A program made the position numbers and the translations under genes. Source: Subtercola sp. Z020 (GTDB lineage Bacteria > Actinomycetota > Actinomycetes > Actinomycetales > Microbacteriaceae). From it: DNA of 64,000 bases. The notes beneath the pieces were generated by a model. It was not told the DNA's origin. It saw only the letters and a list, made by a program, of their open reading frames with translations, and ran no database searches. Of this stretch, positions 1-9,691 are shown in pieces. Location: NCBI RefSeq assembly GCF_002931235.1, contig NZ_PSTT01000121.1:1-64000 (forward strand), written 5' to 3'. The stretch's first letter is position 1. The number at the start of each line of letters is the position of its first letter.

Positions 1-1
1 G

Positions 2-781
2 TGTGGGGGTGAGTGTGGGGGTGGGGGTGAGTCCCGCGGCCTCCGGCGAGCCCCACGCCTCCGTGCGCTGGGTGTCGTCGACTGCGGGAAGGGAGCCGAC
101 CGCGGCGTCGAAGGAGTGTGCGCCCTGGGTCACGACGGTGCGCAGCCGGCCGGAGGAGTGAGTTCCAGCATCCACCTGTACCTCGACAGTGTCGCCCGGC
201 ACGACCACCGACGATCCTGCGGGGGTGCCCGTGAGGATGACGTCGCCGGTCTCGAGCGTGAAATGCTGCGACAGGTCGGCGACGATCTGCGCGAGCGAGA
301 AGATGAGACCTGCCGTCGTGTCGTCTTGAACGACCTCGCCGTTCACCCAGGTGCGAAGACGCAGACCGGCGGGGTCGACCTCGTGGGCATCGATCAGCGA
401 GGGGCCGAGGGGGGTGTATCCGTCGCCGCCTTTGGAGCGGACGTTCGAGCCCTTGTCGTTGGCTCGAAGGTCGTAGAGGCCGAAGTCGTTTGCGGCGGTG
501 ACGAATGCTACGTGTGACCATGCGGCCTCCGCAGTCACCCACCGCGCTGGGGCGCCGATGACGAGTGCGATCTCACCCTCGAAAGCGAGCAGCTCGGTGC
601 CGGCAGGGCGGACGATCTCGTCACCCGAGGGGGCGAGGGAGCTCGACGGTTTGAAGAAGTAGGAGGGGGCGCCCGGGCGGCGGCCGCGCTGGTCAGCGCG
701 CGAGGCGTAGGCGAGGTGAACGGCCACGATCTTGCCGGGCCTCGCGCCGAGAACGGCAAACCGGGGGTCGGTGTCGGTCAT
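2..781 (-). CDS. Fumarylacetoacetate hydrolase (FAH) family protein, C-terminus cut by the window edge
   Basis: This cytosolic enzyme belongs to the FAH/HpcE superfamily, whose members are metal-dependent hydrolases, decarboxylases or isomerases of acylpyruvates and ring-cleavage products. The 260 visible codons start with MTDTDPRF at the ATG ending at 781. They carry the family core: FEGEIALVIG (metal-ligand Glu region), an FGLYDLRANDKG-type loop, then SLAQIVADLSQHFTLETGDVILTGTPAG, which is the diagnostic C-terminal block. The last visible residues are a Thr-Pro run from a G-rich repeat, and the stop lies outside the window. The gene is divergent from the MHS transporter at 898 and shares with it a promoter holding the palindrome at 808-819. 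The exact substrate (fumarylpyruvate, acylpyruvate or homoprotocatechuate product) cannot be told. Confidence 0.88.
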   Translation of the reverse strand, partial: MTDTDPRFAVLGARPGKIVAVHLAYASRADQRGRRPGAPSYFFKPSSSLAPSGDEIVRPAGTELLAFEGEIALVIGAPARWVTAEAAWSHVAFVTAANDFGLYDLRANDKGSNVRSKGGDGYTPLGPSLIDAHEVDPAGLRLRTWVNGEVVQDDTTAGLIFSLAQIVADLSQHFTLETGDVILTGTPAGSSVVVPGDTVEVQVDAGTHSSGRLRTVVTQGAHSFDAAVGSLPAVDDTQRTEAWGSPEAAGLTPTPTLTPT

Positions 782-807
782 CAAAGCTCCCTTGCGTCGT
801 GCTCGAA

Positions 808-819
808 ATCGTATACGAT
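808..819. promoter_or_regulatory. Palindromic operator ATCGTATACGAT between the FAH and MHS genes
   Basis: This is a perfect 12-base inverted repeat in the divergent promoter region of the FAH-family gene (start 781) and the MHS transporter (start 898). The same 12 bases form the centre of the 28-base palindrome at 5482-5509. A central GTATAC resembles sites of GntR-family regulators (the Bacillus GntR operator has a TTGTATACAA core). No GntR gene lies in the window, so the binding protein is unknown. Confidence 0.6.
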
Positions 820-897
820 AACGAACACCCCAGCAACCAGGCCTCGTCATCGACGACGAACTCAGGGGTACGACGACGACGTCCAGAAGGAGACTTC

Positions 898-2280
898 ATG
901 TCCAGCTCGCATCCTCAGGGCTTCACGCCCACCGGCACCATCTCCACCTCCACAGACCGCCGCCGCGTGGTCCTTGCCACGATTGTCGGGACCACCGTCG
1001 AGTGGTACGACTTCTTTCTGTACGCCTCGGCCGCCGGTCTCGTCTTCGGTCAGCTGTTCTTCGCTCCCGCGGGCCCCGGTGTCGCGCAGATCCTTTCGTT
1101 TCTCACCGTGGGTCTGAGCTTCCTGTTCCGCCCGCTCGGCGCCTTCATCGCCGGGCACCTCGGCGACAAATACGGCCGCCGTTTCGTGCTCATGATCACG
1201 CTCATCCTCATGGGCGCGTCGACCACTCTCATCGGCGTACTGCCCACGTATGACGCCATCGGCGTCGCAGCTCCCTCGCTGCTGATCCTGCTTCGTGTGT
1301 TGCAGGGTATCTCGGCCGGTGGGGAGTGGGGCGGTGCGGTGCTCATGGCCGTCGAGCATGCCCCCAAGGCCAAACGAAGCCTGTTCGGCGCCGCGCCGCA
1401 GCTCGGCGTGCCCCTTGGTCTGCTGCTCGCGAGCGGCATGCTGGCGCTCATGGCACTCATCGCCCCCGGCGACGCCTTCCTCGTTTGGGGCTGGCGTGTG
1501 CCGTTCCTGCTGTCGTTCGTGCTCGTTCTCGTGGGCTACTACGTGCGCCGGAAGGTCGAGGAGAGCCCGGTCTTCGTCGAACTGGCCGGGCGCAAGGAGC
1601 AGACCCGGATGCCGATCGTGCAACTCTTCCGCAAGCACGCGCTGCTCGTGATCATTGCCGCATTCGTCTTCGCCGGCAACAACGCTGTCGGCTACATGAC
1701 CACTGGTGGTTACATCCAGCGCTACGCGACCAATCCTGCCGGGCCCCTCGGCCTCGCTACTGCCGACGTGCTCGGTGCAGTATCGCTCTCGGCTGTGTCG
1801 TGGTTGGTGTTCACGTGGCTCGGCGGGTGGCTCGGCGACAAGATCGGGCGCCGCAACACCTATGTCATCGGGTGGATCGCGATGCTGGTCGCAATCGTGG
1901 CGCTCTTCCCGCTCGTGAATACCGGGAGTGTTGGAATGCTGGCCCTCGGCCTGGTGCTGTTGACGGTCGGCCTCGGGCTGACGTATGGCCCGCAGGCCGC
2001 GCTGTACGCTGAGCTGTTTCCGGCATCCATCCGCTTCTCGGGGGTTTCGATCTCGTACGCGATCGGCGCCATCTGCGGCGGCGCATTCGCGCCCACCATC
2101 GCGACGGCGCTTGTGGACGCTACGGGGACGACAGTGTCGGTCACGGTGTACCTGGCGATCATGGCCGTGCTCGGACTCGTGGCGACATTGCTGCTGCGCG
2201 ATCGCAGCGGTATTCCCCTCGGCCCTGACTACGAGGCTGAGCAGGCGGTCAGCCCGATCCGGGCGCTGTCGCGGGCATGA
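898..2280 (+). CDS. MFS transporter of the metabolite:H+ symporter (MHS) family
   Basis: This 460-residue inner-membrane protein probably imports a carboxylate or aromatic acid with protons. The N-terminal IVGTTVEWYDFFLYASAA signature, the loop GHLGDKYGRRFVL and about 12 hydrophobic helices are typical of MHS members (shikimate, ketoglutarate, proline/betaine and aromatic-acid carriers). The ATG at 898 is chosen because GAAGGAGA precedes it. A longer reading from 799 would translate through the operator at 808-819. The gene sits beside catabolic enzymes for an aromatic or 2-hydroxy acid, so it probably brings in that substrate. It converges on the GlcD-like gene with a hairpin at 2293-2327 between them. 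Confidence 0.9.
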   Translation: MSSSHPQGFTPTGTISTSTDRRRVVLATIVGTTVEWYDFFLYASAAGLVFGQLFFAPAGPGVAQILSFLTVGLSFLFRPLGAFIAGHLGDKYGRRFVLMITLILMGASTTLIGVLPTYDAIGVAAPSLLILLRVLQGISAGGEWGGAVLMAVEHAPKAKRSLFGAAPQLGVPLGLLLASGMLALMALIAPGDAFLVWGWRVPFLLSFVLVLVGYYVRRKVEESPVFVELAGRKEQTRMPIVQLFRKHALLVIIAAFVFAGNNAVGYMTTGGYIQRYATNPAGPLGLATADVLGAVSLSAVSWLVFTWLGGWLGDKIGRRNTYVIGWIAMLVAIVALFPLVNTGSVGMLALGLVLLTVGLGLTYGPQAALYAELFPASIRFSGVSISYAIGAICGGAFAPTIATALVDATGTTVSVTVYLAIMAVLGLVATLLLRDRSGIPLGPDYEAEQAVSPIRALSRA

Positions 2281-2292
2281 CGCGCCACGCTT

Positions 2293-2327
2293 GATGGCCC
2301 CGCGGCATTCGGTGCAGCGGGGCCATC
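2293..2327. terminator. Stem-loop between convergent genes
   Basis: An 11-base perfect stem, GATGGCCCCGC paired with GCGGGGCCATC, closes a 13-base loop. It lies just after the MHS stop (2280) and before the end of the convergent GlcD-like gene (2372). There is no long T tract on either side, so it would be a bidirectional, GC-rich actinobacterial-type terminator. Confidence 0.6.
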
Positions 2328-2371
2328 GGGGCGGCCTTGCTCAGAAGGACGCCTCGAGACGCTCCGAGGTC

Positions 2372-3724
2372 TCAGATCGCGCGGCCCGGCGTGAGGATGC
2401 CGCGGGGGTCGAGTGCGACCTTGATCGCGCGTTGCACGTCGAGGGCCGCGGCATCCTGCTGCCAGGGGAGTTCGTGACGCTTGACAGAGCCGATGCCGTG
2501 CTCGCCCGAGATCGTGCCGCCGAGTGAAAGCGCCAAGCGGGTGATGTCGTCGATGACGAGCTCGGCGGCGGCGTACTCCTCAGGGCTTTCGCCCGCCTCG
2601 ACGGTGGGGTGCAGGTTGCCGTCGCCGGCATGGGCGACGACCGCGATACGTCGGCTGTGGCGCTCGGCGATCTCTCCGATGCCGCGGAACACCGTTGCCA
2701 GCTCCGCCACGGGTACTCCGACGTCGCACGACACGCGCAGCCCCTGGGCGGTGAGCGCAGGGTTTGCGAGGCGCCGGGCCTCGAGCAGGCTGTCGGACGC
2801 GGAGATCTCGGTCTCGGTGGCGCCGTGCGCGCGGCAGATCTCGGTGATCGCGCCGGCGGTCTCGTGGGCGGTGAGTCCGACCGTCTGGCCCACCAGCATC
2901 GCGGCGCCGGGCGAGGGCAGCCCGCTGGGATGGAACGCCTCGATGATCTCCACGCTTCTCGCATCGATCAGTTCGAGCACCTCGGGGGTGGCGGGGCCCG
3001 ACACAATCGCCGTGACCGCACGGCCGGCGTCTTCGATGTCGTCGAAGCTCGCGCGGAACGTACGGGGCTCGCCGGGCGGTACAGGTTTGAGACGCACGGT
3101 CGCGGCAGTGATCACGCCGAGCGTGCCCTCGGAGCCGGTGAAGAGGCTGGTGAGGTCGTAGCCGGTGGTGTTCTTGCGGGTGCGGGCGCCCGTGCGCATG
3201 ACGCGCCCGTCGGCCAGTACCACCTCGAGGGCCGCCACGACATCGGTTGTGACGCCGTGCGCGACGCAGCGCAGACCACCCGCGTTCGTGGCGATGTTGC
3301 CGCCGATGGTCGACCATCTGGCGCTTGCCGGGTCGGGCGGGAAGAACAGGCCCTGGGCCAGGGCCGCGTCATCGAGGTCCGCCGTCACCACACCCGCCTC
3401 CACGTCGGCGAGACGGTTTTCGACATCGATCGAGACGATACGGTTCATCGCCTCGAGCGAGACAACCAGCCCGCCGGCGTATGCGACGGCCCCGCCGGAG
3501 AGGCCCGTGCCCGCTCCGCGCACCGAGACCGGGATGCCGCGGACGTTCGCCCAGGCGAGAGCGAAGGACACGTCTTCGGTCGAGGTGGCCCGGACGACGC
3601 CGATCGGCCGCCCTCCGGGTTTCGCGCGGGAGCTGTCGAGCGAGTAGGCGATGAGGCTCTCGGGGTCTTCGAGCAGGCGGCCGCCGAGGGCGGCGCGGAG
3701 CTCGTCGAAGCCGTCAGCGCTCAC
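2372..3724 (-). CDS. FAD-binding oxidoreductase, GlcD/D-lactate dehydrogenase family
   Basis: This 450-residue cytosolic flavoprotein oxidises 2-hydroxy acids to 2-oxo acids in characterised relatives (glycolate, D-lactate, D-2-hydroxyglutarate and D-mandelate dehydrogenases). The FAD_binding_4 half has PVSVRGAGTGLSGGAVAYAGG near residues 65-90 and TIGGNIATNAGG. The C-terminal FAD-oxidase half has VVAHAGDGNLHPT and GGTISGEHGIGSVKR, the metal- and substrate-binding motif of the family. The GTG at 3724 is chosen because it overlaps the TGA of the upstream ThDP enzyme by four bases (GTGA), implying translational coupling. Its product would feed the decarboxylase encoded just upstream. Substrate is inferred only. 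Confidence 0.88.
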   Translation of the reverse strand: MSADGFDELRAALGGRLLEDPESLIAYSLDSSRAKPGGRPIGVVRATSTEDVSFALAWANVRGIPVSVRGAGTGLSGGAVAYAGGLVVSLEAMNRIVSIDVENRLADVEAGVVTADLDDAALAQGLFFPPDPASARWSTIGGNIATNAGGLRCVAHGVTTDVVAALEVVLADGRVMRTGARTRKNTTGYDLTSLFTGSEGTLGVITAATVRLKPVPPGEPRTFRASFDDIEDAGRAVTAIVSGPATPEVLELIDARSVEIIEAFHPSGLPSPGAAMLVGQTVGLTAHETAGAITEICRAHGATETEISASDSLLEARRLANPALTAQGLRVSCDVGVPVAELATVFRGIGEIAERHSRRIAVVAHAGDGNLHPTVEAGESPEEYAAAELVIDDITRLALSLGGTISGEHGIGSVKRHELPWQQDAAALDVQRAIKVALDPRGILTPGRAI

Positions 3725-5373
3725 GAGTTGGCCTTGATGATCTCGCGCTGGTACGGCGCAATGACGTCGCCGCTGATGCGCAGGTCGAGCAGCAGGAACG
3801 GGCGCTCCGAGGGAGTGCGCCGCGTCCACTGCTCAAGGGCATCGAGATCGGCGATTTCACGCACGACGACACCTTCGGCGCCGAAGCCCCGCGCAACCGC
3901 CGCGAAGTCGACCTCAGGGATGAGCATCGGTTCGCGGGCGAGACCCTTGAGGCCGTAGAGGTTGACCTCGGCGCCGTAGGCGGCATCGTTCCAGACCACC
4001 GCGATGCCGTGGCCGCGCGCCGAGCGCACGGCGCTTTCGAGATCGGCGATCGCCATCAGTCCGCCGCCGTCGCCCGTGGTGAGCACAACGGTCGACTCCG
4101 GGCGGGCGGCGATGGCACCCGCCACCGAGGGGAAGCCCAGGCCGATCGACTGATAGGCGGTGCCGATCATCATGATGCGTTCGGGGGACTCGACGGGCCA
4201 GTACATGTTGGACCAGCCGATGAAGTGGCCACCGTCGGAGACGACGACGCGGTCCTCCGGCAGCAGTGTGGCGAGGCGCGCGGCGGCCGAGCGTGGATCG
4301 AGACGGCCGTCGGGGGCCTGACCCGCTCCCTCCTCCTGCGCGCGCAGAGGCGCTACGTCCACCTGATCCCGCCACCCGGAGGAAACCGCTCCGCGAGAGC
4401 GCAGGCGCTCGAGGAGCGCCTCGGCCGCCACCGCAGCATCCGCCCGAAGGAACCCGCCCACCTGCGCGTGTGTCGCGGTGGCGGCGACGTCGATTTGGAA
4501 GACTGTCGTGTTCGGGGCGAGAAGCTCGCCGAAGCGCATCGTGAACTGGTTGAGGCCAGCGCCGAAGACAACGGCCACATCGGCTTCGCGAACGAGCTCC
4601 ATGGCCCCCGCGGCGCCGAAGCCGCCTGTGACGCCGAGGTCGTAGGCGGGCTCGGGGAAGATCCCGCGCCCGAGGGCAGTGGATGCGGTGATCGCGCCGG
4701 TTGCCTCGGCCAGTCGCCCGAGTGCGGGGCCGGCCCCGCAGAGCCACGCGCCGCGGCCGGCGAGCAGGAACGGCCGTTCCGCTCCAGCGAGGGCCTCGGC
4801 GATGCGGTCGAGGGTCGCGTCGGCGGCGGCGCCGTGCGGCGCGAGCGGCGCGGGGAGGGTGACAGTGCCGGCATCCGTGATCGGCCCGGCCTCGCGCGCA
4901 ACGACGTCGTACGGGATCGCGAGCACGACCGGTGTGCGGTAGGTCAGCGCGTGCTCGAGTGCGATGAGTACGGTGGCTGTGGCATCCCGATCGCCGACGG
5001 TGTAGGTTCGCACACCTACCGCCGAAGCGAGGGCGACCTGGTCTACGCCCCACGGGCGAGGGCCCGAGGTGGGCTCGTCGCCGACGACGAGGAGCAGCGG
5101 AATGCGGGCCTGCGCCGCCTCGGCCAGGGCTGTGAGGGTGTTGGTGAATCCGGCACCATAGGTCGCAGTGGCTGCAGCGATGCGGCCCGAAGCGCGATAG
5201 TGCGCGTCGGCGGCGACCACGCCGCCCGCCTCGTGCCGCATCGCGGTGAAGCTGACATCGGTTTCGCGGTGCAGCACGTCGAGAAAATGCGCGTTGCCGT
5301 TGCCCATCACGCCGAAGACGTGGTTGAGGTGGCGGCCGAGAGCGTGGGCGACATGCGCGGAGACGATGGGCAT
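3721..5373 (-). CDS. Thiamine-diphosphate-dependent 2-oxoacid decarboxylase/synthase family enzyme
   Basis: This 550-residue enzyme belongs to the acetolactate synthase, benzoylformate decarboxylase and pyruvate oxidase superfamily. The N-terminal Pyr domain carries the catalytic Glu in MRHEAGGVVAADAHYRASG. The central domain runs from about residue 190. The C-terminal PP domain has the ThDP/Mg motif GDGGGLMAIADLES followed by VVWNDAAYG near residues 430-470. The ATG at 5373 follows GAAAGG and replaces a longer reading from 5487 that would run into the palindrome at 5482-5509. Coupling to a 2-hydroxyacid dehydrogenase and closeness to an aldehyde dehydrogenase favour a decarboxylase making an aldehyde. 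An acetolactate synthase-like carboligase is the alternative. Confidence 0.85.
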   Translation of the reverse strand: MPIVSAHVAHALGRHLNHVFGVMGNGNAHFLDVLHRETDVSFTAMRHEAGGVVAADAHYRASGRIAAATATYGAGFTNTLTALAEAAQARIPLLLVVGDEPTSGPRPWGVDQVALASAVGVRTYTVGDRDATATVLIALEHALTYRTPVVLAIPYDVVAREAGPITDAGTVTLPAPLAPHGAAADATLDRIAEALAGAERPFLLAGRGAWLCGAGPALGRLAEATGAITASTALGRGIFPEPAYDLGVTGGFGAAGAMELVREADVAVVFGAGLNQFTMRFGELLAPNTTVFQIDVAATATHAQVGGFLRADAAVAAEALLERLRSRGAVSSGWRDQVDVAPLRAQEEGAGQAPDGRLDPRSAAARLATLLPEDRVVVSDGGHFIGWSNMYWPVESPERIMMIGTAYQSIGLGFPSVAGAIAARPESTVVLTTGDGGGLMAIADLESAVRSARGHGIAVVWNDAAYGAEVNLYGLKGLAREPMLIPEVDFAAVARGFGAEGVVVREIADLDALEQWTRRTPSERPFLLLDLRISGDVIAPYQREIIKANS

Positions 5374-5481
5374 TGCGAAGCCTTTCGCGAAACAGGAACG
5401 GGAACGGGCCGTATGTGTCTCGCGCGGCGTGGCGCTACATGCTCCTTTTTCGAGCCGCGACGCTCGACCTCGAGCGTCTGA

Positions 5482-5509
5482 CAGCACTGATCGTATACGA
5501 TCAGTGCTG
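5482..5509. promoter_or_regulatory. Perfect 28-base palindromic operator upstream of the ThDP enzyme operon
   Basis: CAGCACTGATCGTA is followed directly by its exact reverse complement. The central ATCGTATACGAT is identical to the site at 808-819. It lies between the end of iclR (5543) and the start of the ThDP enzyme (5373), where the promoter of the ThDP-GlcD operon is expected. A transcribed form would also make a strong hairpin, so a terminator role for iclR cannot be excluded. The copy in another promoter favours an operator. Confidence 0.7.
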
Positions 5510-5542
5510 CTCCGCGCAATGTACGGGGCGGAGCAACGCGGC

Positions 5543-6247
5543 CTAGAGGGCCCTGCGGATAGCGGCTGCTGTGGCCTTGAGTCGCTCCGCGACTGTCGCG
5601 TCGTCGGCGTCGGTGCTCACGTGCACAGCGGCCACTGCCGCGGGCGTCCGGCCCTGCACGGCGAGGGGGACCGCCACGGCGTGCAGAGACGGAACGACCT
5701 CGTCGTGGCTCGTCGCCCAGCCGCGCTCGGCGGCGTCGGCGATCTCGGCGGCGAGTCGGGCATCGATGCCCTCCGGCCAGCGTCTCGGCGGCAGTTGCGC
5801 GAGGATCGCCCGTCCGGGCGCTCCTCGCGTCACTGAGTGCCGGGCGCCAGGCCGTTGAGCCACGGCCGTGGTGGCATGCCGGGGCTCGACGCTGGTGAGA
5901 GTGACGCAATCGTCGTGATCGAGCACAACGAGGAAGCACGTCATTCCGAGGTCGTTGGCCGCGGCGGTCAGCTCGGGCAGAGCCTCGGCTTGCAGGTCGG
6001 CAGCGACGCCGGCGGCCAGCGCGGCGAGGCCTGTTCCCAGGCGCACCGCGCCCGCAGCATCCCGTGAAACCAGTCCGTGTACCTCGAGGGTGCGCAGCAG
6101 GCGATAGGCCACGGAGCGATGAAGCTCGACGCGAGCGGCGAGGTCGTCGATCGAAAGGGGAGTGCGGGCGTCGGCAAGTTCTTCGAGGAGGCGGATGCCG
6201 CGGCTCAGGGTCTGCGACGCGGGTGTCGCGTCTTGCCGTGGAGTCAT
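5543..6247 (-). CDS. IclR-family transcriptional regulator
   Basis: This 234-residue DNA-binding protein has an N-terminal winged helix (SRGIRLLEELADARTPLSID, then LHRSVAYRLLRTLEVHGLV) in residues 10-65. The C-terminal IclR effector domain follows, with the segments VTLTSVEP and GAPGRAILA. The ATG at 6247 is preferred over a start at 6301 because the longer form would cover both inverted repeats at 6264-6301. The gene is divergent from mobA, so it probably regulates itself and the monooxygenase-aldehyde dehydrogenase pair. The effector is probably an aromatic acid, by analogy with PcaR/PobR and MobR-type systems. Confidence 0.9.
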   Translation of the reverse strand: MTPRQDATPASQTLSRGIRLLEELADARTPLSIDDLAARVELHRSVAYRLLRTLEVHGLVSRDAAGAVRLGTGLAALAAGVAADLQAEALPELTAAANDLGMTCFLVVLDHDDCVTLTSVEPRHATTAVAQRPGARHSVTRGAPGRAILAQLPPRRWPEGIDARLAAEIADAAERGWATSHDEVVPSLHAVAVPLAVQGRTPAAVAAVHVSTDADDATVAERLKATAAAIRRAL

Positions 6248-6344: not shown

Positions 6345-8219
6345 ATGCAGTTCCACCACCACGGCTACGTCTCGGGCGACCCGCGCATACAAGTTGCCGC
6401 GGGTGGCGGTATCGATCGCCCCGCCGACCTGCCCGACGAGGTAGACGTTCTGATCGTCGGCTCGGGACCGGCGGGCATGTTGCTCGCGGCTCAGCTGTCA
6501 CAATTCTCGCAGTTCACCACTCGCCTCGTAGAGAAGCGCGGCGGGCGCCTTGCTCTCGGCCAGGCTGACGGCATCCAGCCCCGCAGTCTCGAGACCTTCC
6601 AGGCGTTCGGGTTTGCCGACCGCCTCACCGCCGAGGCGTACAACATCGGCTGGATGAACTTCTGGTCGCCTGACCCAGAGGACCCCACACGGATTGTCCG
6701 GAGCAGCCGCACCGAGGACTACGGCTACAAGATCAGTGAGTTCCCGCATCTGATCGTCAACCAGGCTCGCGTGCTCGACTACTTCGCGGAGGCCGCCGCC
6801 CACGGCCCTGCCCGCATCGTGCCCGACTACGGTGTGGAGTTTCTCGACCTCACGGTCGGTGAGGGTCTGGTCGAGGTGCGCGTGCGGACCGAGACGGGCG
6901 AGCGCACTGTTCGCGCGAAGTACGTCGTCGGCTGCGACGGTGCGCGTAGCGGGGTGCGCCAGGCGATCGGTCGCACGCTCGTCGGAGGGGACGCCCGCCA
7001 CGCGTGGGGCGTCATGGACGTGCTTGTCGAAACAGACTTCCCCGATTGGCGTATCAAATGCGCAATCAACGCTGCCGCGGGCAACATCCTGCACATCCCG
7101 CGCGAGGGCGGGTATCTCAGTCGCATGTACATCGACCTCGGTGAGGTCGCCGAAGACGACGATCACCGCGTTCGTCAGACGTCGATCGACGAGGTGATTC
7201 GCAGGGCGAACGCGATCCTTCACCCGTACTCCGTCGACGTGAAAGAAGTGGCGTGGCACAGCGTGTACGAGGTGGGGCATCGGGTCACTGACCGGTTCGT
7301 CGATGACCTCGACGAACCGCGCGTCTTCCTCACAGGTGACGCCTGCCACACGCACAGCGCGAAGGCTGGTCAGGGTATGAACGTCTCGATGCAAGACGGC
7401 TTCAACCTCGGTTGGAAGCTCGCACACGTGCTCACCGGCCGTGCGCCCGCGGAGCTGTTGCGCACCTACGACGCGGAGCGTCGCCCTGTCGCCCAGCAGC
7501 TCATCGACTTCGACCGCGAGTGGTCGTCGCTCATGGCGCGCAAGCCCGGCGAGACCACCGACCCCGACGAGCTCGCGACCTACTACCTCGCCACCGCCGA
7601 GTTCCCCTCCGGCTTCGGTACGCACTACGCCCCGTCCAGCATCGTTGCACCTGAGGCAGCCCAGGAACTGGCATCCGGATTCCCCGTCGGAAAGCGCTTC
7701 CGAAGCGTCGAGGTCGTGCGGGTGTGCGACGGCAATGCTGTGCACCTCGGGCATCACGCCAAGGCCGACGGACGGTGGCGCATGTATGTCTTCGCTGATG
7801 CCGACGGCTCGGCGCTTCGTGAATGGGCGTCGAAGGCCCAGGGCATGGTCGAGCGGTTCACGCCCGAGGGCTCCGACCTCGATGCCGTCTTCGACGTGAA
7901 AGCCATCTTCCCCGGCCGCTGGGAGGACGTCGTCGATGTGCCGTCGCTGTTTCGCCCGCGCTCCGGGCCGCTCGGCTTGACCGACCTCGAGAAGGTGTTC
8001 GCCGCCGCGCCTTCGGCCTGGACGAGCGCCGACATTTTTGCGGAGCGCGGGATCGGTGCCGACGGCGCCCTGGTCCTCGTGCGCCCGGACCAGTACGTCG
8101 CGCACGTACTCCCGTTGACGGCCTCGGACGAGCTTGAGCAGTTCCTGGCCGGGGCACTCACCGTGCCCGCAGTTGCCGAAAAGAGGCGGAAGCCCGCCCT
8201 GATCCAGGAGGACCGATGA
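6345..8219 (+). CDS. mobA: 3-hydroxybenzoate 4-monooxygenase-like flavoprotein
   Basis: This 624-residue FAD monooxygenase of the phenol hydroxylase group uses NADPH and O2. The closest family I recall is Comamonas MobA, which converts 3-hydroxybenzoate to protocatechuate. Shared hallmarks are the MQFH start, the VDVLIVGSGPAGM dinucleotide fold, LGQADGIQPRS, VVGCDGARSGVR, HPYSVDVKEVAWHSVYEVG and GDACHTHSAKAGQGMN near residue 330. A thioredoxin-like C-terminal domain follows from about residue 450. The ATG at 6345 has AGGAGAAACA before it. It overlaps the aldehyde dehydrogenase by ATGA and is probably controlled by the divergent IclR. Substrate assignment rests on remembered family resemblance, not an alignment. 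Confidence 0.82.
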   Translation: MQFHHHGYVSGDPRIQVAAGGGIDRPADLPDEVDVLIVGSGPAGMLLAAQLSQFSQFTTRLVEKRGGRLALGQADGIQPRSLETFQAFGFADRLTAEAYNIGWMNFWSPDPEDPTRIVRSSRTEDYGYKISEFPHLIVNQARVLDYFAEAAAHGPARIVPDYGVEFLDLTVGEGLVEVRVRTETGERTVRAKYVVGCDGARSGVRQAIGRTLVGGDARHAWGVMDVLVETDFPDWRIKCAINAAAGNILHIPREGGYLSRMYIDLGEVAEDDDHRVRQTSIDEVIRRANAILHPYSVDVKEVAWHSVYEVGHRVTDRFVDDLDEPRVFLTGDACHTHSAKAGQGMNVSMQDGFNLGWKLAHVLTGRAPAELLRTYDAERRPVAQQLIDFDREWSSLMARKPGETTDPDELATYYLATAEFPSGFGTHYAPSSIVAPEAAQELASGFPVGKRFRSVEVVRVCDGNAVHLGHHAKADGRWRMYVFADADGSALREWASKAQGMVERFTPEGSDLDAVFDVKAIFPGRWEDVVDVPSLFRPRSGPLGLTDLEKVFAAAPSAWTSADIFAERGIGADGALVLVRPDQYVAHVLPLTASDELEQFLAGALTVPAVAEKRRKPALIQEDR

Positions 8220-9691
8220 CCGATCCGCGCGAGAGCGAGCTGCTCGCATCCGTGCCCACCGGGCTGCTCATCAACGGCGCGTGGCGTGAGGCAGTGGGAG
8301 GCAGGACCGTCGCAGTGAACGACCCAGCCACTGGCGACGTCATCCGCGAGATTGCCGACGCGAGCGTCGATGACGGCATCGCGGCGATGAATGCCGCGGC
8401 CGATGCGTTCCCATCGTGGGCGGCGACGCCGGCACGTGAGCGTGCCGAGATCCTCCGCCGGGCGTTCGACCTCCTACAGGAGCGCACAGAAGACGTTGCG
8501 CTGCTCATGACGCTCGAGATGGGCAAGCCCCTCGCCGAGGCGCGGGGCGAGGTCGCGTACGGCGGCGAGTTCCTCCGCTGGTTCAGCGAGATCACCGCTC
8601 ACACCCAGGGCCGTTACGGCGCGAATCCCGAGGGCACCGGCCACATGATCGTCACCCATCACCCGGTCGGCCCTTGCTACCTCATCACTCCATGGAACTT
8701 TCCGCTGGCGATGGCGACCCGCAAGATCGCGCCTGCGCTTGCTGCGGGCTGCACGGTCGTGATCAAGCCCGCGACGCTCACCCCGCTCACGACGATGTTC
8801 TTCGCGCAGATACTGCAGGACGCCGGTCTCCCCGCCGGTGTCGTCAACGTCATCACGACAACAGACACCGGCCCGGTCTCGGAGCGCATCATCTCCGATC
8901 CGCGCCTACGAAAGCTTTCCTTCACGGGCTCCAACCCGGTCGGTGTGAAGCTGCTGCAGCAGGCCGCGCCCAGCGTGCTCCGCACCTCGATGGAGCTCGG
9001 CGGCAACGCTCCCTTCGTCGTTTTCGACGACGCCGATCTCGACAAGGCGGTCGAAGGGGCGATGCTCGCAAAATTCCGCAACATGGGCCAGGCGTGCACC
9101 GCGGCGAACCGATTCATTGTGCACCGCTCGATCGTCGGGGAATTCACGCGCCGGGTCACCGAGCGCGTGCGCAGTATGAAGGTGGGCCGTGGCACGGAGG
9201 AGGGCGTGCAGATCGGACCCCTCATCGACGACCGCGCGGTCGTCAAGGCCAGGACCTTGGTGGAGGATGCCGTAGAGCGCGGCGCTGTCGTCACCGCCGG
9301 CGGGGCCGGGATGGACGGCCCTGGCACCTTTTTTCAGCCGACCGTCATCGCCGACGTTCAGCCGGGGAGTGACATCCTGCGCGAAGAGATCTTCGGACCC
9401 GTGCTCGCGATCATCCCTTTCGACGACGAGGACGACGCCGTGCGGCTCGCCAATGACACCGAATACGGGCTCGTCTCCTACGTCTTCACCGAGTCGATCG
9501 TGCGCGGGCAACGCATGATCGACCGACTCGAGACTGGAATGATGGGCCTCAACGTCGGTGTCGTCTCCAATGCCGCGGCCCCGTTTGGTGGCTGGAAGCA
9601 GTCCGGTCTCGGCCGCGAGGGCGGCGACGAGGGCATCCACGAATATCTGCAGACGAAGTACACCTTGACGGCTAGCCCCCTTCCGGCCTGA
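8216..9691 (+). CDS. NAD(P)-dependent aldehyde dehydrogenase, succinate-semialdehyde dehydrogenase type
   Basis: This 491-residue cytosolic enzyme oxidises an aldehyde to its acid. Visible signatures are ITPWNFPLAMATRK (nucleotide site), SFTGSNPVGVKLL, the general-base Glu in MELGGNAPF near residue 260, and the catalytic Cys in GQACTAANRF near residue 297. The GabD-like consensus is strong. Relatives of this branch also act on aromatic aldehydes. Its start overlaps the mobA stop (ATGA), so the two proteins should be made together. An aromatic aldehyde oxidised here could supply the hydroxybenzoate for MobA. Genuine succinate-semialdehyde dehydrogenase activity is the alternative. Confidence 0.88.
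   Translation: MTDPRESELLASVPTGLLINGAWREAVGGRTVAVNDPATGDVIREIADASVDDGIAAMNAAADAFPSWAATPARERAEILRRAFDLLQERTEDVALLMTLEMGKPLAEARGEVAYGGEFLRWFSEITAHTQGRYGANPEGTGHMIVTHHPVGPCYLITPWNFPLAMATRKIAPALAAGCTVVIKPATLTPLTTMFFAQILQDAGLPAGVVNVITTTDTGPVSERIISDPRLRKLSFTGSNPVGVKLLQQAAPSVLRTSMELGGNAPFVVFDDADLDKAVEGAMLAKFRNMGQACTAANRFIVHRSIVGEFTRRVTERVRSMKVGRGTEEGVQIGPLIDDRAVVKARTLVEDAVERGAVVTAGGAGMDGPGTFFQPTVIADVQPGSDILREEIFGPVLAIIPFDDEDDAVRLANDTEYGLVSYVFTESIVRGQRMIDRLETGMMGLNVGVVSNAAAPFGGWKQSGLGREGGDEGIHEYLQTKYTLTASPLPA

Follow-up and report, generated by a model that had tools for sequence, protein, structure and literature searches.

Repressors of the FadR subfamily pair a GntR winged helix with an FCD domain, and the part of the describing paper that was available to us (PMC4494728) gives for their operators the rule TKGT/ACMA, with GT and AC spaced by 3 nt or, in several groups, by 2 nt; exceptions to that rule are published. 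For the catabolism of homoprotocatechuate, the accessible part of a second paper (PMC7180172) names HpaR, a MarR-family protein, as the repressor of the hpa-meta operon of E. coli W and Yersinia. The literature searched, which covered few subscription papers, yielded no GntR/FCD regulator for the genes of homoprotocatechuate breakdown, and in the accessible part of PMC6498646 GntR is named only for another cluster. Here we describe a 64,000-nt stretch of Subtercola sp. Z020 (the window; positions 1-64000 of contig C156 in a 3.53 Mb draft genome of 166 contigs) that carries two copies of a 12-base palindrome, ATCGTATACGAT, a word likewise not found in that literature. We consider it very probable that a FadR/FCD-type GntR repressor, encoded in the operon FAH-RraA/gntR/hpaE/hpaD/hpaH/hpaI, uses ATCGTATACGAT as its operator, and a structured leader RNA would add a second control at one of the two promoters. 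The predicted pair of operator and regulator adds a new example to a well-known kind; of the two findings, the leader RNA has the greater novelty.

The palindrome and the linked GntR/FCD regulator

The first copy (site 1, positions 808-819) lies between the divergent starts of FAH, the first half of a FAH-RraA fusion gene (2-784, minus strand), and MHS1, which encodes a metabolite/H+ symporter-like MFS transporter (898-2280, plus strand). The second (site 2, 5490-5501) is the same exact 12-mer and forms the center of a perfect 28-base palindrome (5482-5509), which breaks when widened by one base on each side and which stands upstream of the gene for a thiamine diphosphate (ThDP)-dependent enzyme (3721-5373, minus strand; hereafter ThDP). 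Both the recurrence of the core and the extent of the longer palindrome had been pointed out in the initial annotation, and computation bore them out. When the whole draft genome was scanned, ATCGTATACGAT occurred at zero or one mismatch in these two places only, both of them upstream of functionally linked genes.

The initial annotation had also suggested that a GntR/FCD gene might be found just left of the window. The contig begins at base 1 inside FAH, and for that reason the window itself holds no GntR gene; the remainder of FAH-RraA is on another contig, C122. The FAH portion in the window matches positions 13-262 of NF009399, a 501-position FAH-RraA fusion family, with 404.8 bits, and the first frame of C122 matches positions 265-494 with 386.5 bits, each half alone falling under the 444-bit cut-off. 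A repeat of the CCCACACTC type, situated in the FAH-RraA linker, is present at the ends of both contigs (window 1-30, C122 1-30) and would explain a break in the assembly there. We infer that C122 joins the left edge of the window and that the fusion gene was split by the assembly. On C122 the FAH-RraA portion is indeed accompanied by a GntR/FCD regulator gene (C122:708-1412), which is followed by hpaE, hpaD, hpaH and hpaI.

The encoded regulator has an N-terminal GntR winged-helix domain (PF00392, 50.9 bits against a cut-off of 27) and a C-terminal FCD domain (PF07729, 67.4 bits against 24.3); Pfam gives GntR and FCD alone, with no match to the MarR family. FCD matches number 18 in the whole genome, and the choice fell on the C122 protein because in relatives its orthologue adjoins both FAH and the site. 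Across 118 aligned orthologues, S51, V53-A58 and R60 of the recognition segment are identical in every sequence, with rare variation at V52 and I59; the histidines His143, His188 and His211 do not vary at all, presumably as expected for a metal-binding FCD domain. Among the matches listed, which may omit records very near the window's genome, the closest named orthologues are from Microbacterium, where identity reaches 93% (92% in M. testaceum StLB037).

Of 398 family genomes, 59 contain the exact ATCGTATACGAT and none the reversed word; the exact word is present in 58 of the 153 genomes that have a GntR match (E 1e-30 or better) versus 1 of the 245 without. Outside the genome under study, 58 of 68 copies lie within 8.5 kb of a GntR orthologue, in 51 genomes. 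Among 116 distinct regions upstream of FAH, 111 carry the site, 34 exactly, 53 at one mismatch and 24 at two, compared with none for the reversed word and 0.6% for shuffled palindromes. As some of these loci had been chosen for the word, the fair figure is that from named genomes for which the GntR protein was the only search handle, in which the site at up to two mismatches precedes FAH in 77 of 77 distinct regions (23 exact); in a second GntR-chosen genome set the count was 13 of 16. The core had been likened in the initial annotation to a GntR-type site, and both the linked GntR/FCD gene and the tracking of the word with its orthologue speak for that likeness, binding itself being predicted.

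As far as the available part of PMC4494728 allows comparison, the system described here shares with the FadR/FCD repressors the domain pair of the regulator, a palindrome whose GT and AC are 2 nt apart, and a single site in a divergent intergenic region. With HpaR, as described in the accessible part of PMC7180172, it would share the role of a repressor of a homoprotocatechuate meta-cleavage operon, a role that is predicted here; it differs in that HpaR is of the MarR family, whereas the regulator on C122 is of the GntR/FCD type and is encoded inside the operon. Thus, to the extent that source covers it, a pathway under a MarR-type repressor in E. coli W would have a GntR-type regulator-operator pair here.

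The core reads TCGT-AT-ACGA and contains the hexamer TACGAT on both strands, which makes for a candidate -10 element in either direction at site 1 (within 808-819) and, at site 2, for a candidate -10 of the ThDP promoter (5490-5495, minus strand) inside the operator. Positions T-A-N-N-N-T are kept in 110 of the 111 FAH sites at up to two mismatches, a constancy partly built into the matching. The ThDP promoter provides an independent test, because the conserved RNA found there marks the start of the transcript: in 47 of 49 ThDP leaders a TAnnnT hexamer ends 4-7 nt before the 5' end of the RNA (46 of them at 6-7 nt), against a control rate of 0.3%. Because the core includes a -10-like hexamer, a repressor that regulates its own gene most likely uses it as operator.

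These features are consistent with a mechanism in which the GntR repressor, as the second gene of its own operon, would be autoregulated through site 1. This single site would span both divergent promoters, that of the FAH operon and that of the MHS transporter gene, and site 2 would cover the promoter of ThDP and the GlcD-like gene that follows it (ThDP-GlcD). A GntR dimer on the site would mask the -10 element and exclude RNA polymerase, and an aromatic acid intermediate binding the FCD domain would relieve that exclusion. The ThDP transcript would moreover start with the structured leader, whose last helix abuts the Shine-Dalgarno sequence and may thereby provide a second, probably translational, control.

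The most serious alternative, though we regard it as improbable, is that the palindromes bind another regulator, be it the local IclR protein or an unlinked one, and that the linked GntR protein uses different sites. It draws on the departure of the core from TKGT/ACMA, on the position of iclR (5543-6247, minus strand, upstream of ThDP on the same strand) next to site 2, on the 18 FCD matches in the genome, and on the finding that in some relatives the site lies between iclR and PHM, the gene for a MobA-like flavoprotein hydroxylase. Against it stand the tracking of the word with the GntR orthologue and the 77 of 77 FAH regions from genomes found through GntR alone. Moreover, loci of 20 kb such as L101 and L102 carry the site and the GntR gene with no IclR match, and the loci collected, limited in length, made 30 upstream regions available for IclR and 117 for GntR; on these grounds IclR was rejected as the likely binder.

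Several observations weigh against assigning the operator to the linked GntR protein, and we set them out together. The exact word is absent from 95 of the 153 genomes with a GntR match, and 5 of the 116 FAH regions lack the site even at two mismatches. Ten of the 68 copies outside the genome under study lie away from the GntR gene; of the nine loci around such copies that were examined, five hold the copy inside a long reading frame and four between the frames of other genes. The copy before ThDP is found in just 4 of 57 more distant ThDP genes at up to two mismatches, a simple sigma-70 scan gave a promoter at neither site, a -35 element was assigned to neither promoter, and C replaces K at the second position of the published rule (TCGT/ACGA; PMC4494728, from the part available). 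Finally, the join of C122 to the window is itself deduced, and binding by GntR, repression, the effector and translational control are all predicted. Two genomes of genus g84 have the exact core next to a short membrane-protein-like gene and distant from any GntR orthologue (L107, 9198; L256, 4777), and these cores perhaps belong to another regulator.

The predicted GntR regulon of the Subtercola strain would comprise FAH-RraA/gntR/hpaEDHI, MHS1 and ThDP-GlcD. The initial annotation had joined two promoters into one regulon; computation upheld this and brought in what the annotation had not noted, namely gntR-hpaE-hpaD-hpaH-hpaI as further members and the structured leader RNA behind the second copy. 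What found no support was the ThDP copy as a general rule. That copy precedes 6 of 6 ThDP genes of at least about 88% identity (the window included), at 110-114 nt before the aligned start; in the close relatives L177 and L251 the upstream sequence is too short to judge. Given the counts in more distant ThDP genes, the ThDP copy is lineage-specific, being found mainly in close relatives. In the loci collected the site also occurs before hpaH (17 of 105 upstream regions at up to one mismatch) and before PHM (10 of 58 at up to two); in the named set found through GntR the corresponding counts at two mismatches are 0 of 73 and 6 of 36. The arrangement with the site between PHM and iclR is not that of the window, and in the relatives that have it iclR or PHM may be targets. 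An element TTGAAC-R-GATCGTATACGA, one mismatch from the core, was seen in the PHM-iclR spacer of L202, L225, L232 and L237, which suggests that the PHM hydroxylase joins the regulon in these loci. If the assignment is correct, an anonymous palindrome becomes a regulator-operator pair for a catabolic pathway, with a regulon that can be traced across a bacterial family.

After the FAH site, in the FAH direction, a conserved tail TTTCGRATAcga (positions 13-20) was noted, which includes a downstream ATAcga box. The box recalls the extra half-sites described in the available part of PMC4494728, and the tail is possibly such a half-site or a transcript start.

A GntR match was seen in one (G002, 60% identity) of 11 same-genus genomes searched (G001-G011), and the cluster may have been gained recently in the window's lineage, or the genus label may be broad. 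The cluster GntR was also met at 83% in a record titled Planococcus sp. APC 4015 (L208), a Firmicute, and at 71% in a record of Streptomyces halstedii NRRL ISP-5068 (L245), for which mislabeling, contamination and transfer are candidate readings.

A structured leader RNA before the ThDP gene

When ThDP promoters were compared, the sequence after the operator proved to be conserved far more widely than the operator itself. This sequence corresponds to a leader of about 100 nt (5383-5482, minus strand; covariance-model match R1, 81.0 bits), the 5' end of which falls at the predicted start of the ThDP transcript and abuts the operator. Read from 5482 down the minus strand, it opens with GUC; hairpin P1, which covaries, is followed by the strongly conserved hairpin P2, with UGCUCGAAAAAGGGGCA in its consensus, and by a variable hairpin P3, after which GCGAGAC-ACAUACGG pairs back to GUCUCG. 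Directly behind this last helix lies the Shine-Dalgarno sequence AAAGG (5381-5385, minus strand), at a distance of 7 nt from the ATG (5373).

A covariance model built from 24 leaders gave 61 matches in 85 sources, each of the 61 with a ThDP homologue within 200 nt downstream on the same strand. Many of these sources had been chosen for ThDP, in contrast to the genomes searched as follows. Among 150 family genomes the leader was found in 39, with one match each, and 38 of these lie upstream of a ThDP homologue, the sole other match (G171) having an E value of 8.1e-4. A search of the order gave 21 matches in 19 of 149 genomes, of which 18 are directly upstream of a ThDP homologue and the remaining three are weak (E 0.004-0.03); eight of the 19 genomes belong to the window's family, and four of these were already in the family search. 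The matches linked to ThDP reach families f6, f7, f9, f12 and f15 besides f1.

The structure was set by hand from single folds and a helix parse. In an alignment fitted to the model (A3), both sides had changed in 18 of the 25 pairs, a number equaled in none of 500 shuffles, and the cells changed on both sides numbered 121 versus 39.1 in shuffles (0 of 500); these counts lean towards the structure, because A3 was fitted to the hand-set model. In an unfitted alignment (A2), nine pairs changed on both sides versus 4.7 +/- 1.1 (0 of 500), and the inner ACGG/CCGU helix paired in 68.8% of cells with none of its pairs changing on both sides. RNAalifold on the first MAFFT alignment (A1), in which the 5' helix is misaligned, returned five pairs only.

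Rfam 15 gave no match at gathering thresholds in the whole window or in four loci. With E values up to 10 over 5300-5600 it gave a single long non-coding RNA hit (E 2), and with E values up to 1 over six loci a single microRNA hit (E 0.83), both of which we took as chance. No published RNA resembling the leader was apparent in the literature searched. The leader has in common with the riboswitches and other cis-regulatory leaders of Rfam 15 a structured 5' position, covarying helices, near-invariant loops, a last helix set against the Shine-Dalgarno sequence and an association with one gene family; it differs in having no Rfam match and in that it has to date been met only in front of a single ThDP enzyme family, within a single actinobacterial order. 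We read the leader as a cis-regulatory RNA absent from Rfam 15, its regulatory role being predicted from these features, and as possibly a riboswitch. Tied as it is to a single family of ThDP-dependent enzymes, it offers a ready target for ligand identification.

Another reading takes the conserved segment for an N-terminal coding extension of ThDP or an element acting as DNA, given that the GC-rich stretch ahead of ThDP remains open over long frames, including one of 588 aa from 5487. We judge this very unlikely. Counted from the predicted ThDP start, the conserved GAGACAYAYAYGG is spread over the three frames (25, 19 and 13 of 57) and 15 of 57 leaders contain an in-frame stop, on which grounds a coding sequence was rejected, and the helices covary.

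The 28-base extension and the remaining readings

The initial annotation had raised the question of whether 5482-5509 has no role beyond that of an iclR terminator, in which case its likeness to site 1 would be coincidental. On the strand of iclR, the segment begins 34 nt and ends 61 nt past the stop of that gene, and in the window its RNA has a very stable fold (z -5.8, 0 of 200 shuffles). Nevertheless, the terminator scan listed no terminator-like site there, the same core at 808 stands between divergent starts, and the ThDP promoter has its candidate -10 inside the core; in addition, five relatives keep the site at one or two mismatches, yet the matching RNA is not stably folded (z -1.66 to +1.27). 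We therefore rejected a terminator-only role, which we regard as very improbable.

The extension of the core to 28 bases is peculiar to the Subtercola strain, with eight contiguous extra pairs around the core, compared with 0-2 in 55 and 5 in one of 56 other exact cores of the fetched loci (some loci overlap, so that some cores are counted twice). Behind the 28-base palindrome comes another perfect stem (5459-5478, P1 of the leader), and the two make a strain-specific double hairpin; this possibly also serves as an iclR terminator in this strain.

That both copies are due to chance or to a dispersed repeat, for which the 27 further places in the genome at exactly two mismatches might be cited, can be dismissed almost entirely, since 0.01-0.03 exact copies are expected per genome by Markov models of the window's composition and two were found, there is no third copy at one mismatch and thus no scatter of random copies, the reversed control word has no place in the draft genome at up to two mismatches, and the conservation of the site in the set found through GntR refutes it.

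The probable homoprotocatechuate pathway and neighboring genes

On C122, HpaE matches TIGR02299 with 650.4 bits (cut-off 638.35), HpaD aligns over residues 26-388 with solved homoprotocatechuate 2,3-dioxygenases (615 bits, by sequence only), and HpaI matches PF03328 with 178.3 bits. HpaH has 61% identity to an FAA-hydrolase-family protein of a relative, its own frame giving no Pfam hit, and the FAH half is under the HpaG cut-offs (150.6 of 276.4 bits). Together HpaE, HpaD, HpaH, HpaI and FAH indicate a homoprotocatechuate meta-cleavage route.

PHM (6345-8219, plus strand) is followed by an aldehyde dehydrogenase gene (ALDH; 8216-9691, plus strand). The nearest relative of PHM among solved structures is 3-hydroxybenzoate hydroxylase (588 bits), and PHM co-occurs with the GntR orthologue: of the 153 genomes that have a GntR match 131 hold it, versus 8 of the 245 others; when 14 genomes with weak GntR matches were dropped, the counts were 131 of 139 versus 8 of 259. 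HpaB was found in 34 of these 139 GntR genomes versus 6 of the 259 others, and in the Subtercola genome itself neither HpaB nor 4-HPPD had a match. In a set of 60 family genomes, all 17 with a ThDP match (E 1e-100 or better) were among the 23 with a GntR match.

For Arthrobacter arilaitensis, the part of the genome report available to us (PMC2991359) describes homoprotocatechuate genes and states that the genes for two upper steps were not located. ThDP, ALDH and the flavoprotein hydroxylase are found together with homoprotocatechuate genes here and are thus candidates for those two steps, as far as that source describes them. The upper pathway would run from aryl-lactate through arylpyruvate (by GlcD), arylacetaldehyde (by ThDP) and arylacetate (by ALDH) to homoprotocatechuate (by hydroxylation through PHM). 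A bolder reading, which we offer tentatively and hold to be rather doubtful, is that the leader represents a new riboswitch class sensing an intermediate of arylpyruvate or homoprotocatechuate catabolism, that ThDP, ALDH and PHM supply unassigned upper steps of the Gram-positive tyrosine-to-homoprotocatechuate pathway, and that a GntR operator on the -10 would be combined with an RNA switch from +1.

The ThDP-dependent enzyme itself showed a broad tie both by sequence and by fold (model mean pLDDT 75.3, Z 27.2-29.5) among 2-hydroxyacyl-CoA lyase, HKA synthase, glyoxylate carboligase, benzaldehyde lyase and others, owing to which the assignment of a single substrate was dropped; among the best 25 of 52 NCBIfam matches, all were below cut-off. 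The second gene after the promoter, for a GlcD-like FAD-linked dehydrogenase (2372-3724, minus strand), likewise follows ThDP in the relatives' loci L177, L188 and L251.

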